Origin: Candidatus Petromonas tenebris | GTDB taxonomy: Bacteria > Bacillota > Clostridia > Peptostreptococcales > Caminicellaceae | DNA: 32,869 nt | Reading direction: 5' to 3' | Assembly (NCBI GenBank): GCA_014236755.1 | Contig: JACCKY010000035.1 | Span: 1 to 32,869, forward strand | Part shown: piece after piece, positions 12,393 through 31,560 of the stretch | Layout of the letters: each line of letters opens with the position of its first letter | Numbering within the stretch: the stretch's first letter is position 1 | Translations under genes and position numbers: made by a program | Notes under the pieces: model-generated | The model's input: the letters and a program-made list of their open reading frames with translations, nothing else | What the model was told of the DNA's origin: nothing | Database searches by the model: none

Positions 12393-12664
12393 GTATAGTC
12401 GTGCACCTATCCTCGACATTTCGACCCAGGCGTTACCTAAACAGTTAGCTCAAACCAGGCACCCCTACGGCACACGAGAGGGCTTACTTACCGTTGCTTC
12501 CTTCCGGACCTGGCGGGGTTCATAAGTTCCCGTTGCGTAGGACCCAATTATCCTCACCACTTATTTAGGGCTGACCCTAAAACAAAATGCCTCAAATAGG
12601 AATTCGACCCTGCTATAGCGGATTGCAGGTTACAGGGCACCGCTACCTCCCCGTCTAGCACGAC
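12393..12664 (-). ncRNA. ffs: Large signal recognition particle RNA (6S/SRP type with Alu domain)
   Basis: The S-domain hallmark CCAGGTCCGGAAGGAAGCAA is present on the minus strand near 12500-12520. The 5' Alu part, with GTGCTAGACGGGGAGGTAGC and CGGTGCCCTGTAACCTGCAA, is also present, as in Bacillus scRNA. The ends pair: GTCGTGC at 12664-12658 with GCACGAC at 12404-12398. The resulting length of about 272 bases matches the ~270-base RNA of Gram-positives rather than the short enterobacterial 4.5S RNA. It forms the scaffold of SRP with Ffh for membrane targeting. A strong terminator follows. Confidence 0.95.
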
Positions 12665-12684: not shown

Positions 12685-12773
12685 TGGCGGAGAGAGCGGG
12701 ACTCGAACCCGCGGGGCCTTTCGGCCTTACACGCTTTCCAGGCGTGCCCCTTAGCCAACTCGGACATCTCTCC
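12685..12773 (-). tRNA. tRNA-Ser (GGA)
   Basis: 89 bases with a long variable arm (GGCCGAAAGGCC), class II as expected for serine. The anticodon loop CTGGAAA sits in a CACGC/GCGTG stem, giving anticodon GGA. The acceptor GGAGAGA pairs with TCTCTCC, the discriminator is G, and CCA is encoded. It begins three bases after the tadA stop and so is cut from the same transcript. Its GCCA end matches the UGGC of the serS T-box in this window. Confidence 0.96.
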
Positions 12774-13253: not shown

Positions 13254-13330
13254 TGGTGCACCTGAGAGGACTCGAACCTCCGACACGCGGTTTAGGAAAC
13301 CGCTGCTCTATCCTGCTGAGCTACAGGTGC
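13254..13330 (-). tRNA. tRNA-Arg (CCT)
   Basis: 77 bases including an encoded CCA. The acceptor GCACCTG pairs with CAGGTGC, the anticodon loop TTCCTAA is closed by GCGGT/ACCGC, and the T arm has GGAGG TTCGAGT CCTC. The anticodon CCT reads the rare AGG arginine codon. It is 24 bases upstream of tadA on the same strand. Confidence 0.96.
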
Positions 13331-13576: not shown

Positions 13577-13864
13577 TTAAGATGTAATCTGTAATCCATT
13601 TACTTCTATGGTTTTAAATAATATAAAATTCGATAATGTAATTGTAACATATTTATTCTTGACCCTTGCATGCTTATCCATAAATACCTTTATTCCATCA
13701 ATATTAAACTCTTTGTAAGCATCAGGATTTTTAGGATATTCCATAGACACGTATGGAGTAGACATCTTAACTCAACATCCTGCCTCGCTTACATCAATCC
13801 TTAAAACGTCCTTGCCTTTCTTTTCCAAGTATTTCTTTACCTTTTTATCTATTTTTATTTCCAA
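13577..13864 (-). CDS. CC/Se-motif family selenoprotein with UGA-encoded selenocysteine at residue 31, 95 aa
   Basis: Ordinary reading gives only a 62-residue ORF from ATG 13765. Extending the same frame upstream through TGA 13774-13772 gives a full protein from TTG 13864, which has an AGGAGG site seven bases before it. It opens MEIKIDKKVKKYLEKKGKDV, then reads LRIDVSEAGC-U-VKMSTPYV, and continues VSMEYPKNPDAY and FNIDGIKVFMDKH. The Gly-Cys-Sec triplet matches the CC/Se motif family, in which other members have Cys-Cys at this place; the fold resembles HesB/IscA-like proteins. A hairpin follows the UGA as expected for a bacterial SECIS. The gene starts 32 bases after the stop of the M1 peptidase gene, so the two are probably co-transcribed. 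Its biochemical role is not established to my knowledge. Confidence 0.88.
13741..13756 (-). promoter_or_regulatory. Putative bacterial SECIS hairpin of the CC/Se selenoprotein
   Basis: CCATA and TATGG arms enclose a six-base loop CGTGTC, starting 15 bases after the UGA. Distance and a G/U-bearing apical loop fit the SelB-binding hairpins of bacterial selenoprotein mRNAs. Found by eye; not folded by program. Confidence 0.55.
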
Positions 13865-13896: not shown

Positions 13897-15399
13897 TTAT
13901 CTTAGCCACTCTTTGAAGTAATCATCAAGTTCTTCTCCAGTTACTTCCTCGCATACCTTTAAAAAGTCTTTAGTAGTAGCTATTTTGAATTTATATCTAT
14001 CATAATAGGTACTTAACATATCATAAAAAAGGTCTATTCCGTATCTTTCTCTAAGCTTATCCAGAAATATTGCTCCTTTATTATAGACCAATAAACTATA
14101 ATCATCCCAGTCTTTAAATTCTTTTAAGGTTTTCAAAACTCTTTTATCTTTTAAAGAATCTACTAATTCATAATATCTCTCTTCATTTTCAAATTTATGA
14201 TATTCCTGTGCAGTTTGTTCCCCATAGTTTTCCCTGTAGTATATTACTTCTGAATATGATGCAAAGCTTTCATCAAGCCAAGATTCATCTATCTGATCAT
14301 TGCCAACTACTGCATACCACCACTGGTGAGCCGTTTCATGTACAATTAGGGTTTCTAAAAAACTTTTATAATTTTTATTATAGTACTCTTTACCTATAAA
14401 TACTATGCCGGGATACTCCATCCCACTTGGAAAACTAGTTTGCACTACTGAATATTCCTTATATGGATATTTACCGAATACTTTATTAAAGGTCTTAAAA
14501 GATTTTTCTGAAAAATCTAGTGCCTCTTTAATTATGTCTTTATCTGCTTTTCCCTTAATAAAATACATTTTCAAAAGAACTCCATCAACAAACTTTTCCA
14601 CCTTTTGAAAATCTTTGCTGGCTACCCAGGCAAAGTCCCTCATATTTTCAGCTTCTATCTCCCATTCTCTAACGTCACCGATAACTTTATTGGATATAAT
14701 TTTTCCCGATGAAGCAATTACTACATCCTTTGGAGCTCTTATAGCTACTTTATAATTGCTTACATCGCTGTAAAAAGGATCCCCTATGGCATAGTAAGGG
14801 TCAAGATTCCATCTATCTTCATCATAAACCGAAACTACAGGATACCAATTTCCAAAGTTATAGGTATCCTTGCCATAGCCAAATCTCTCAGCCACCGGAG
14901 GTAGTTTTATCTTATACTCCATATTTATAGTTACCTGCTCTCCAGGCTCTACTGCCTTAGGAAGCATCACTTCCAATATAGTATCGCCTCGTCCACCTAT
15001 GCTATATACTACCTTTTCTCCATCTACATACAAGTTTTCTATGTCTATATAACCTTCTTCAAAACCCTTCCAATATGCCCTTCTAAAATCATTAAAGAGA
15101 AATGGAACTGTCTCCCTATCTTTAAAAGCATTGGGATAAAGGTGAAAATATATCTTGTCGATAGAAATTTTTTCATTATTTACATATACCGTTTCCTGAT
15201 TCCCCTTTAGAATTTTGTCTTCAAGATTAAATTCTACGTTAATATTATATTGATTTAAATTTCCTTGGATCCTATACTCCTGTCTATTCTCACTTTTTTC
15301 TAGGGATTTTTCGTTCCTTTTGTCCTTTATGCCACAGGAAGTCAATATTAATAAAAATGCCATGATTATAAGTAAAGCCGGTTTTAATTTTTTGTTCAC
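13897..15399 (-). CDS. M1-family zinc metallopeptidase, lipoprotein, 500 aa
   Basis: The N-terminus KPALLIIMAFLLILTSC is a lipoprotein signal with the lipobox Cys near residue 22, so the enzyme is probably tethered outside the membrane. Zinc binding is shown by HETAHQWW near residue 341 followed by the third ligand in DESWLDESFASYSEVIYY. A GAMEN-like loop precedes it as FPSGMEYPGIVF. An N-terminal beta domain (FNLEDKILKGNQETVYVNN) is as in aminopeptidase N relatives, and the C-terminal part is short compared with full M1 enzymes. The start is GTG 15399. The downstream selenoprotein gene is 32 bases away. Substrate unknown. Confidence 0.88.
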   Translation of the reverse strand: MNKKLKPALLIIMAFLLILTSCGIKDKRNEKSLEKSENRQEYRIQGNLNQYNINVEFNLEDKILKGNQETVYVNNEKISIDKIYFHLYPNAFKDRETVPFLFNDFRRAYWKGFEEGYIDIENLYVDGEKVVYSIGGRGDTILEVMLPKAVEPGEQVTINMEYKIKLPPVAERFGYGKDTYNFGNWYPVVSVYDEDRWNLDPYYAIGDPFYSDVSNYKVAIRAPKDVVIASSGKIISNKVIGDVREWEIEAENMRDFAWVASKDFQKVEKFVDGVLLKMYFIKGKADKDIIKEALDFSEKSFKTFNKVFGKYPYKEYSVVQTSFPSGMEYPGIVFIGKEYYNKNYKSFLETLIVHETAHQWWYAVVGNDQIDESWLDESFASYSEVIYYRENYGEQTAQEYHKFENEERYYELVDSLKDKRVLKTLKEFKDWDDYSLLVYNKGAIFLDKLRERYGIDLFYDMLSTYYDRYKFKIATTKDFLKVCEEVTGEELDDYFKEWLR

Positions 15400-17155: not shown

Positions 17156-17396
17156 AAAAGCCTCCCGTCCCATATATATAGGGACGAGAGGCTCTTTCCC
17201 GCGTTGCCACCCTTATTGACTAAATATAGTCCTCTTTAAGCATCTTAACGGCTGCTAACCGTTCAGACCTACTAAAACTTCAGCCTGACAACTCCGGGAC
17301 GGATTCAATAGATAGTTATATCGACTTTCACCTGCCGCCGACTCTCTGAAACAACTACTCTATTTACTATTTCCCTTCATAGTCTTTCTATTATTT
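17156..17396 (-). promoter_or_regulatory. Serine T-box riboswitch leader of serS
   Basis: The T-box motif AGGGTGGCAACGCGGGA is present on the minus strand (17198-17214). A terminator follows with arms gcctcccgtccc / gggacgagaggc (17160-17192) and a T run. The 5' part is GA-rich, as in Stem I. In Stem I the sequence GAATCCGTC offers UCC (17303-17301) as the serine specifier. The UGGC of the T-box bulge pairs with the GCCA end of tRNA-Ser(GGA) at 12685-12773. Uncharged tRNA-Ser should favour the antiterminator and serS expression. The specifier assignment is an inference. Confidence 0.93.
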
Positions 17397-31305: not shown

Positions 31306-31560
31306 ATCGAGTAGGAGGTAGATTATTAACTCATCTACCGTACTCTCATACCAGCATACATACCGTTTGGTATATGGCAGTTCATTAGGTTAAGCTCAAT
31401 TTCTCTTAGTTTCCCTTTCATATCGTTCGTGTACCTCGGACCGGTATTTTTCCTTCAAATTCCATCTCACGATGGACACCCTTGTCTTGGGCTAGTGGTT
31501 GGCACGACAGGCCACTACAGTGTACTTTCACTACCTAGTTGTTATGCATGCCTGTCACAC
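31306..31560 (-). mobile_element. Internally deleted, ORF-less group II intron (probable class C)
   Basis: On the minus strand it starts GTGTGACAGGCATGC, continues with ACAACTAGGTAGTGAAAGTA, AAGGGTGTCCATCGTGAGAT, GGAATTTGAAGGAAAAATAC and ACACGAACGATATGAAAGGG, and ends in a GGTAGAT / ATCTACC hairpin followed by CCTACTCGAT. The GTGTG start, the domain-I-like words and the final CTACTCGAT are what I recall of bacterial group II introns. The maturase gene and most of the core are missing. It starts four bases after a terminator stem, the insertion preference known for group IIC introns. The family call is from memory. It makes up most of the gap between niaR and the GntR gene. Confidence 0.68.

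Follow-up and report, generated by a model that had tools for sequence, protein, structure and literature searches.

The protein family filed in NCBIfam as NF041239, "CC/Se motif family (seleno)protein" (Moor_selen_rel), is listed in Table 1 of a 2026 review, as a predicted selenoprotein first found in Moorella thermoacetica, with the motif CxxU and one selenocysteine (Sec) (PMC13188914). Section 7 (parts 1-2) and the passages of that review used here give no function for it (PMC13188914). The HesB-like selenoprotein, TIGR01911 in the same source (PMC13188914), is likewise small and remotely IscA-like, and carries Sec in a motif loop. NCBIfam also curates ArsM_AhpD_UU, ArsM_DUF2284_UU and other double selenoproteins, which have two or three Sec and are arsenic-related, and through which multi-Sec proteins tied to arsenic are already known. 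These are, however, larger ArsM fusions, and the motifs given for them are UxxG and CxxU rather than adjacent Sec-Sec (PMC13188914). The arsenite metallochaperone ArsD (NF033727) is a small protein with a vicinal Cys pair and is encoded near several of the tandem-UGA (UU) relatives considered below, but its likeness to CC/Se proteins is one of chemistry only, no sequence relation having been seen. The Cys residues of ArsD have a role towards As(III).

The window analysed here, a 32,869-nt stretch of the Candidatus Petromonas tenebris genome, contains a gene that is almost certainly a CC/Se motif family member with its UGA decoded as Sec, as judged by sequence comparison. Since the family is already published, the gene is a further member of a known family. 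Its start codon, Shine-Dalgarno sequence and stop were read directly from the sequence, and the assignment of the UGA was made from the frame and the family alignment:

13864-13577, minus strand: predicted CC/Se-motif selenoprotein gene, 95 codons, TTG start, Gly-Cys-Sec as residues 29-31
13877-13872, minus strand: Shine-Dalgarno sequence AGGAGG, 7-nt spacing to the TTG
13864-13862, minus strand: TTG start codon
13774-13772, minus strand: UGA codon 31, predicted to be read as selenocysteine
13757-13740, minus strand: SECIS-like hairpin UCCAUA-CGUGUC-UAUGGA, nt 15-32 after the UGA
13579-13577, minus strand: TAA stop

The frame holds a single in-frame UGA and is otherwise open through 95 residues with U at position 31; the TTG with its AGGAGG, the UGA and the TAA all lie where the preliminary description had placed them. 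Translation table 11 breaks the stretch into two frames, one of 45 aa that stops at the UGA and one of 62 aa (13765-13577), so the earlier account of a gene of which ordinary gene calling keeps only the last 62 residues was accurate, and the gene cut short by annotation is thereby corrected to its full 95 codons. That table 11 yields exactly these two frames also speaks for an ordinary stop, in which case translation would start from the ATG at 13765, giving a 62-residue product, and the first 30 codons would be a relic, and one of 20 chosen long minus-strand frames of the window does end in TGA; against this, the ideal Shine-Dalgarno sequence and start codon belong to the upstream part.

With C written for U, the window protein matches NF041239 at 65.1 bits over residues 2-91, above the curated cut-off of 40 along its whole length, and a six-frame search of the whole genome recovers the gene at 60.1 bits. 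In the family alignment Cys30-UGA31 falls against the CC, UC and UU of relatives, placing a Cys/Sec pair in the motif loop, and the in-frame UGA aligns with Cys in homologs. The selenoprotein reading, the family name and the Cys-Cys pattern of relatives that had been proposed from the bare sequence are thus all supported. The review gives CxxU with one Sec for the family (PMC13188914), whereas the window gene has adjacent Cys-Sec and the relatives collected here have UC, CU, CC and UU pairs. An ortholog in a genome of the same family as the source (L012) has its UGA at the same codon and is 49% identical, with 17 of 30 residues identical before the UGA and 29 of 64 after it; the differences before the UGA, by codon position, number 10, 6 and 16, which is coding-like.

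Among 391 genomes of the class, the CC/Se family was detected at E <= 0.001 in 37 and over the cut-off in 27, and a family-level search added two further genomes beyond the class sample. From the 62 loci read out in these genomes and the window genome, L042 (partial, frame unclear), L072 and L073 were removed, leaving 59 to be aligned; the last two were rejected as members, their open frames of over 420 aa being other proteins. A UGA lies within the frame read in 39 of the 59 members, at residues 29-37 throughout, a UGA beyond the end of the profile match being counted as an ordinary stop (TGA is the last codon of 13 of the 59 frames). The 48 UGA codons all sit in two alignment columns, column 41 (26) and column 44 (22), although U was written as C for the alignment, a choice that itself brings Cys and Sec into line. 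That all 48 lie in the Cys/Sec pair argues against an ordinary stop, as does the conservation of N-terminal residues across the family in this alignment. Homologs that start at the downstream ATG and lack the N-terminus had been named as evidence that would tell against the reading; instead, all 39 UGA homologs have at least 28 in-frame residues before the UGA, with starts chosen by hand, 38 at ATG, GTG or TTG and one (L025) at ATA.

SelA is present in all 27 genomes with a UGA member and in 4 of the 11 that have UGA-free members only (p = 2.6e-5), one genome, G115, whose sole member is L042, being in neither group. Of the 391 genomes in the class sample 60 have SelA, including all 25 that carry a UGA member. 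Readthrough of the UGA as Trp or by another near-cognate tRNA would likewise leave the frame open under such codes, but the pair in UGA-free homologs holds Cys and not Trp, and the presence of SelA in every genome with a UGA member also stands against it; we give this reading next to no credence.

In bacterial SECIS elements the distance from the UGA to the apical loop is 16-37 nt, and a G is found in the first two loop bases (PMC13188914). The window hairpin, which has a 6-bp stem and the loop CGUGUC beginning at nt 21 after the UGA with G second in the loop, satisfies this published rule (PMC13188914). Its position 15 nt after the UGA is as first claimed, and the stem is one pair longer. Taken alone its stability is weak, a 28-nt piece giving z -1.98 with 10 of 200 shuffles equally stable and a 45-nt piece z -1.36 with 24 of 200. 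Across the family we searched for a minimum-energy hairpin whose loop begins 19-26 nt downstream of the UGA and includes an early G, using the same place in UGA-free members as control. Such a hairpin occurs in 34 of 39 UGA members vs 0 of 20 UGA-free members (p = 2e-11; codon-shuffle expectation 6.8 and 3.2), with the loop window fixed after this first sample had been seen and the published 16-37 nt rule independent of it. Because the window had been set post hoc, it was applied unchanged to later loci, where the hairpin was present in 20 of 20 UGA loci (expectation 3.8) and then in one more. The second sample overall stands at 21 of 21 UGA loci vs 0 of 3 UGA-free loci, drawn from a UU-group profile search with near-copies included and with those three as its only controls. 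A first scan without bulges gave 28 of 39 vs 1 of 20 at 5 bp and 31 of 39 vs 4 of 20 at 4 bp. The SelA co-occurrence and the SECIS control both weigh against an ordinary stop, which we regard as very improbable. In the preferred Sec reading, SelB with Sec-tRNA would read UGA codon 31, directed by the hairpin downstream, to give Gly-Cys-Sec.

The absence of selA, selB, selC and selD from the genome had been put forward as grounds for rejecting this reading, but all are present: selA, selB, selD and tRNA-Sec lie together on one contig (C113), and selD, selA and selB are all over their NCBIfam cut-offs. The selD frame (L043:1-1092, C113) can be followed upstream across an in-frame UGA within SGUAAKIG, a usual position for Sec in SelD. 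This selD is probably itself a selenoprotein, and the genome therefore very probably makes at least one other selenoprotein. The genome also contains a second CC/Se copy:

C91:27405-27674, same genome (L003, L044): CC/Se paralog with one UGA in the same pair

The paralog scores 38.4 bits against NF041239 in the six-frame search and 43.4 bits as a protein (cut-off 40), so that the source genome appears to hold two Sec-bearing paralogs of the family. It adjoins a rhodanese gene, and TusA-like, DsrE-like, CsoR-type and CoA-disulfide-reductase-like genes are close by; the TusA-like, DsrE-like and CoA-disulfide-reductase-like genes are on the other strand, and the TusA and CoA-reductase matches are below their cut-offs. 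Separately, the interval between selB and tRNA-Sec (L043:9846-12397, C113) carries an ArsP-type permease, an ArsR-type regulator, a low-molecular-weight-phosphatase-type protein (ArsC-like by eye) and a short ArsA-ATPase piece.

Pair labels assigned to 78 proteins gave UU in 20, CC in 19, UC in 17, CU in 10, other Sec arrangements in 11 and CGC in 1, with CxxU, CGU and UGSC spacings also present in the family. The tree built from these proteins, with L054 and the four loci fetched last left out, rests on few columns and leaves 27 of its 75 inner branches open, and we rely on its UU grouping alone: UU forms a single group (SH-aLRT 96) and the remaining labels are scattered. Seven changes between Sec and no-Sec are needed on this weak tree, though for CC no more than 2 are forced by well-supported branches. 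A UC and a CC protein of genome G341 stand within one group of five (support 88). This placement and the scatter of labels suggest that the two motif positions act as one unit. The occurrence of CC, CU, UC and UU at one site offers a natural test of what selenium adds to a vicinal thiol pair.

Tandem UGA-UGA is found in 20 proteins from 19 genomes, nine of them from the class search (among which L060 is diverged), one from one further search and ten from a phylum search of 398 genomes:

L056, L057, L060, L061, L063-L066, L068, L142-L152, other genomes: UGA-UGA loci

The phylum search gave 24 places, of which 19 were fetched first, three UGA-free loci and G518 were then added, and the 24th was the window gene. 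In the UU-group searches all hits at E <= 1e-18 carry two UGA codons each, with no Cys form of the group seen among them. Each UGA-UGA is followed by one hairpin, whose pairs co-vary across the 20 members: pair 4 after the second UGA is A-U in 14, G-C in 3, G-U in 2 and unpaired in 1 (L060, in another register), and pair 1 is A-U in 11, G-C in 4, U-A in 1, U-G in 1 and unpaired in 3. The group is very probably decoded as adjacent Sec-Sec; if so, it would raise the question of how a single SECIS serves two consecutive Sec insertions. An adjacent Sec-Sec motif is absent from Table 1 of the review, in which some rows give no motif (PMC13188914), and no description of one was found in the literature searched, which did not include Haft and Tolstoy 2025. 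ArsM-fusion selenoproteins are, however, named "UU" in NCBIfam. Two scans of GTDB contigs confirmed no close relative, the second being limited to the Cys-Cys form of the strict UU-group pattern, which cannot match UGA forms. No CC/Se match was found in plasmid and phage sequences, the UU protein having been tried against plasmids only, and viral contigs, queried with a UC member and with a UU fragment, yielded no relative of either.

Gene neighbourhoods were compared at 83 loci (the 59 and 24 more), taking about 6 kb on each side where the contig allowed and less at some. No arsenic or sulfur genes were recognised among the neighbours of the window gene. Acr3, scored as near a locus by tblastn at 60 bits or more, is near 8 of 20 UU members vs 1 of 63 other contexts (the UC member L023). 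By sample it was near 7 of the 9 UU loci of the first, near L152 too, and near 0 of the 10 of the phylum sample, so an arsenic link was rejected as a general rule for the UU group and kept as lineage-limited only. One representative each of ArsR, Acr3, a YfcE-type phosphodiesterase, ArsD, ArsA and ArsM was identified by NCBIfam, and the remaining ones by similarity to these. At four loci (L079-L082) the YfcE-type phosphodiesterase gene immediately precedes the UU gene. In the phylum sample, the UU gene L147 is clustered with genes for an aldehyde ferredoxin oxidoreductase, an iron-hydrogenase-C protein and a ThiS-like protein, and the neighbourhoods of L144-L146, L149 and L150 resemble it by eye; an oxidoreductase of the aldehyde ferredoxin kind is also near L076 of the class sample. 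Near the single-UGA members L156, L157, L161 and L190 there are matches to ArsM-type methyltransferases (124-160 bits).

As to fold, NCBIfam IscA-type models match the window protein at E 0.0015-0.0042 (17.3-18.8 bits), far below their cut-offs, and hhalign of the CC/Se profile against six HesB-like selenoproteins gave 96.4%, the six having been named by a PF01521 match and the UxGP motif and not by a TIGR01911 scan. PF01521 matches two family members below its cut-off (L165 and L168, which are L059 and L026). The Pfam scan gave no match of any kind to the window protein, PF01521 included, TIGR01911 had no match to it at E <= 1, and no Cys follows residue 30, so that the C-terminal Cys pair is absent. 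That pair is the defining feature of A-type carriers, and the window protein, having neither it nor a PF01521 match, is therefore not filed among them. It also differs from HesB-like selenoproteins in having neither UxGP nor a Cys at or next to the C-terminus. A single-sequence structure model was unusable (pLDDT 37) and no solved structure matched, the best PDB hit (E 1.1, ribosomal L4) being taken as chance, so the fold assignment rests on sequence profiles. These make it likely that the protein has a degenerate IscA/HesB-like carrier fold, in which the motif loop would be kept and the C-terminal Cys pair of A-type carriers lost. The six HesB-like proteins themselves (L162, L163, L164, L166, L167 and L169) come from five other genomes and have an in-frame UGA (UxGP) and a Cys at, or one residue before, the C-terminus.

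Use of such a fold as an IscA-like iron-sulfur or iron carrier, with Sec as a cluster ligand, would agree with the remote IscA/HesB similarity; moreover, in 24 of the 26 genomes scanned nothing matches PF01521 above its cut-off, and the canonical carrier slot therefore looks empty. We consider it unlikely, as the window protein is missing the C-terminal Cys pair of A-type carriers and CC, CU, UC and UU forms occur alike in the family. Because Acr3 is near some UU members and the window gene's own paralog lies beside a rhodanese gene and near TusA-like, DsrE-like and CoA-disulfide-reductase-like genes, we tentatively propose a soft cargo instead: Cys30-Sec31 may be a vicinal soft-ligand pair that would bind or relay something thiophilic, be it a metalloid, As(III) for instance, or sulfane sulfur/persulfide.

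The main alternative, and one close behind, is a plain redox role, with the Cys-Sec pair as a thiol/selenol redox centre (a selenenylsulfide switch or the partner of a disulfide reductase) and not a carrier. Most uncharacterised prokaryotic selenoproteins are held to be likely redox proteins (PMC13188914), L156 adjoins thioredoxin-reductase-like and rhodanese-like genes by eye, and the CxxU, CGU and UGSC spacings would suit such a centre. The profile scans made gave no thioredoxin-family match, though, at least one member (L029) has Sec without an adjacent Cys, and part of the UU group is placed in arsenic clusters, so that a redox centre, while quite possible, is ranked second to the soft-ligand pair. 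A joint reading of the whole family, which taken together falls just short of what we would call probable, is that CC/Se proteins may form a vicinal chalcogen-ligand module in which two adjacent positions are Cys or Sec interchangeably; the UU group would make Sec-Sec, probably as a diselenol ligand or diselenide, and would serve near arsenite-resistance genes in some lineages and, in others, close to genes for aldehyde ferredoxin oxidoreductase; and the window gene would be the Cys-Sec edition of the module.

The gene immediately upstream in the window is:

13897-15399, minus strand: M1-domain peptidase gene (PF01433, 4e-23)

The Pfam match confirms the M1-type peptidase of the preliminary description. 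Its stop is 32 nt from the TTG of the window gene, and the N-terminus of the M1 protein is lipoprotein-signal-like by eye. The two genes may plausibly share one transcript. The order M1, CC/Se, sensor and dnaX (dnaX by eye) is common to the window and to G003 (L083), a genome of the same family, in which an in-frame TAA breaks the M1 gene that precedes the ortholog. M1 matches occur in 4 of the 83 contexts, adjoining the CC/Se gene in the window and L083 and about 4.4 kb off in L094 and L099. The peptidase was rejected as a functional partner, and the arrangement seems better read as an order of genes inherited in common than as a sign of joint function.

Other features recognised in the window are RNA elements:

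12399-12663: large SRP RNA
12685-12773: tRNA-Ser
13254-13330: tRNA-Arg
17177-17389: T-box leader, upstream of seryl-tRNA synthetase

A marginal match to group II intron D1-D4 was also observed at 31344-31476 (33.3 bits vs a gathering threshold of 32).
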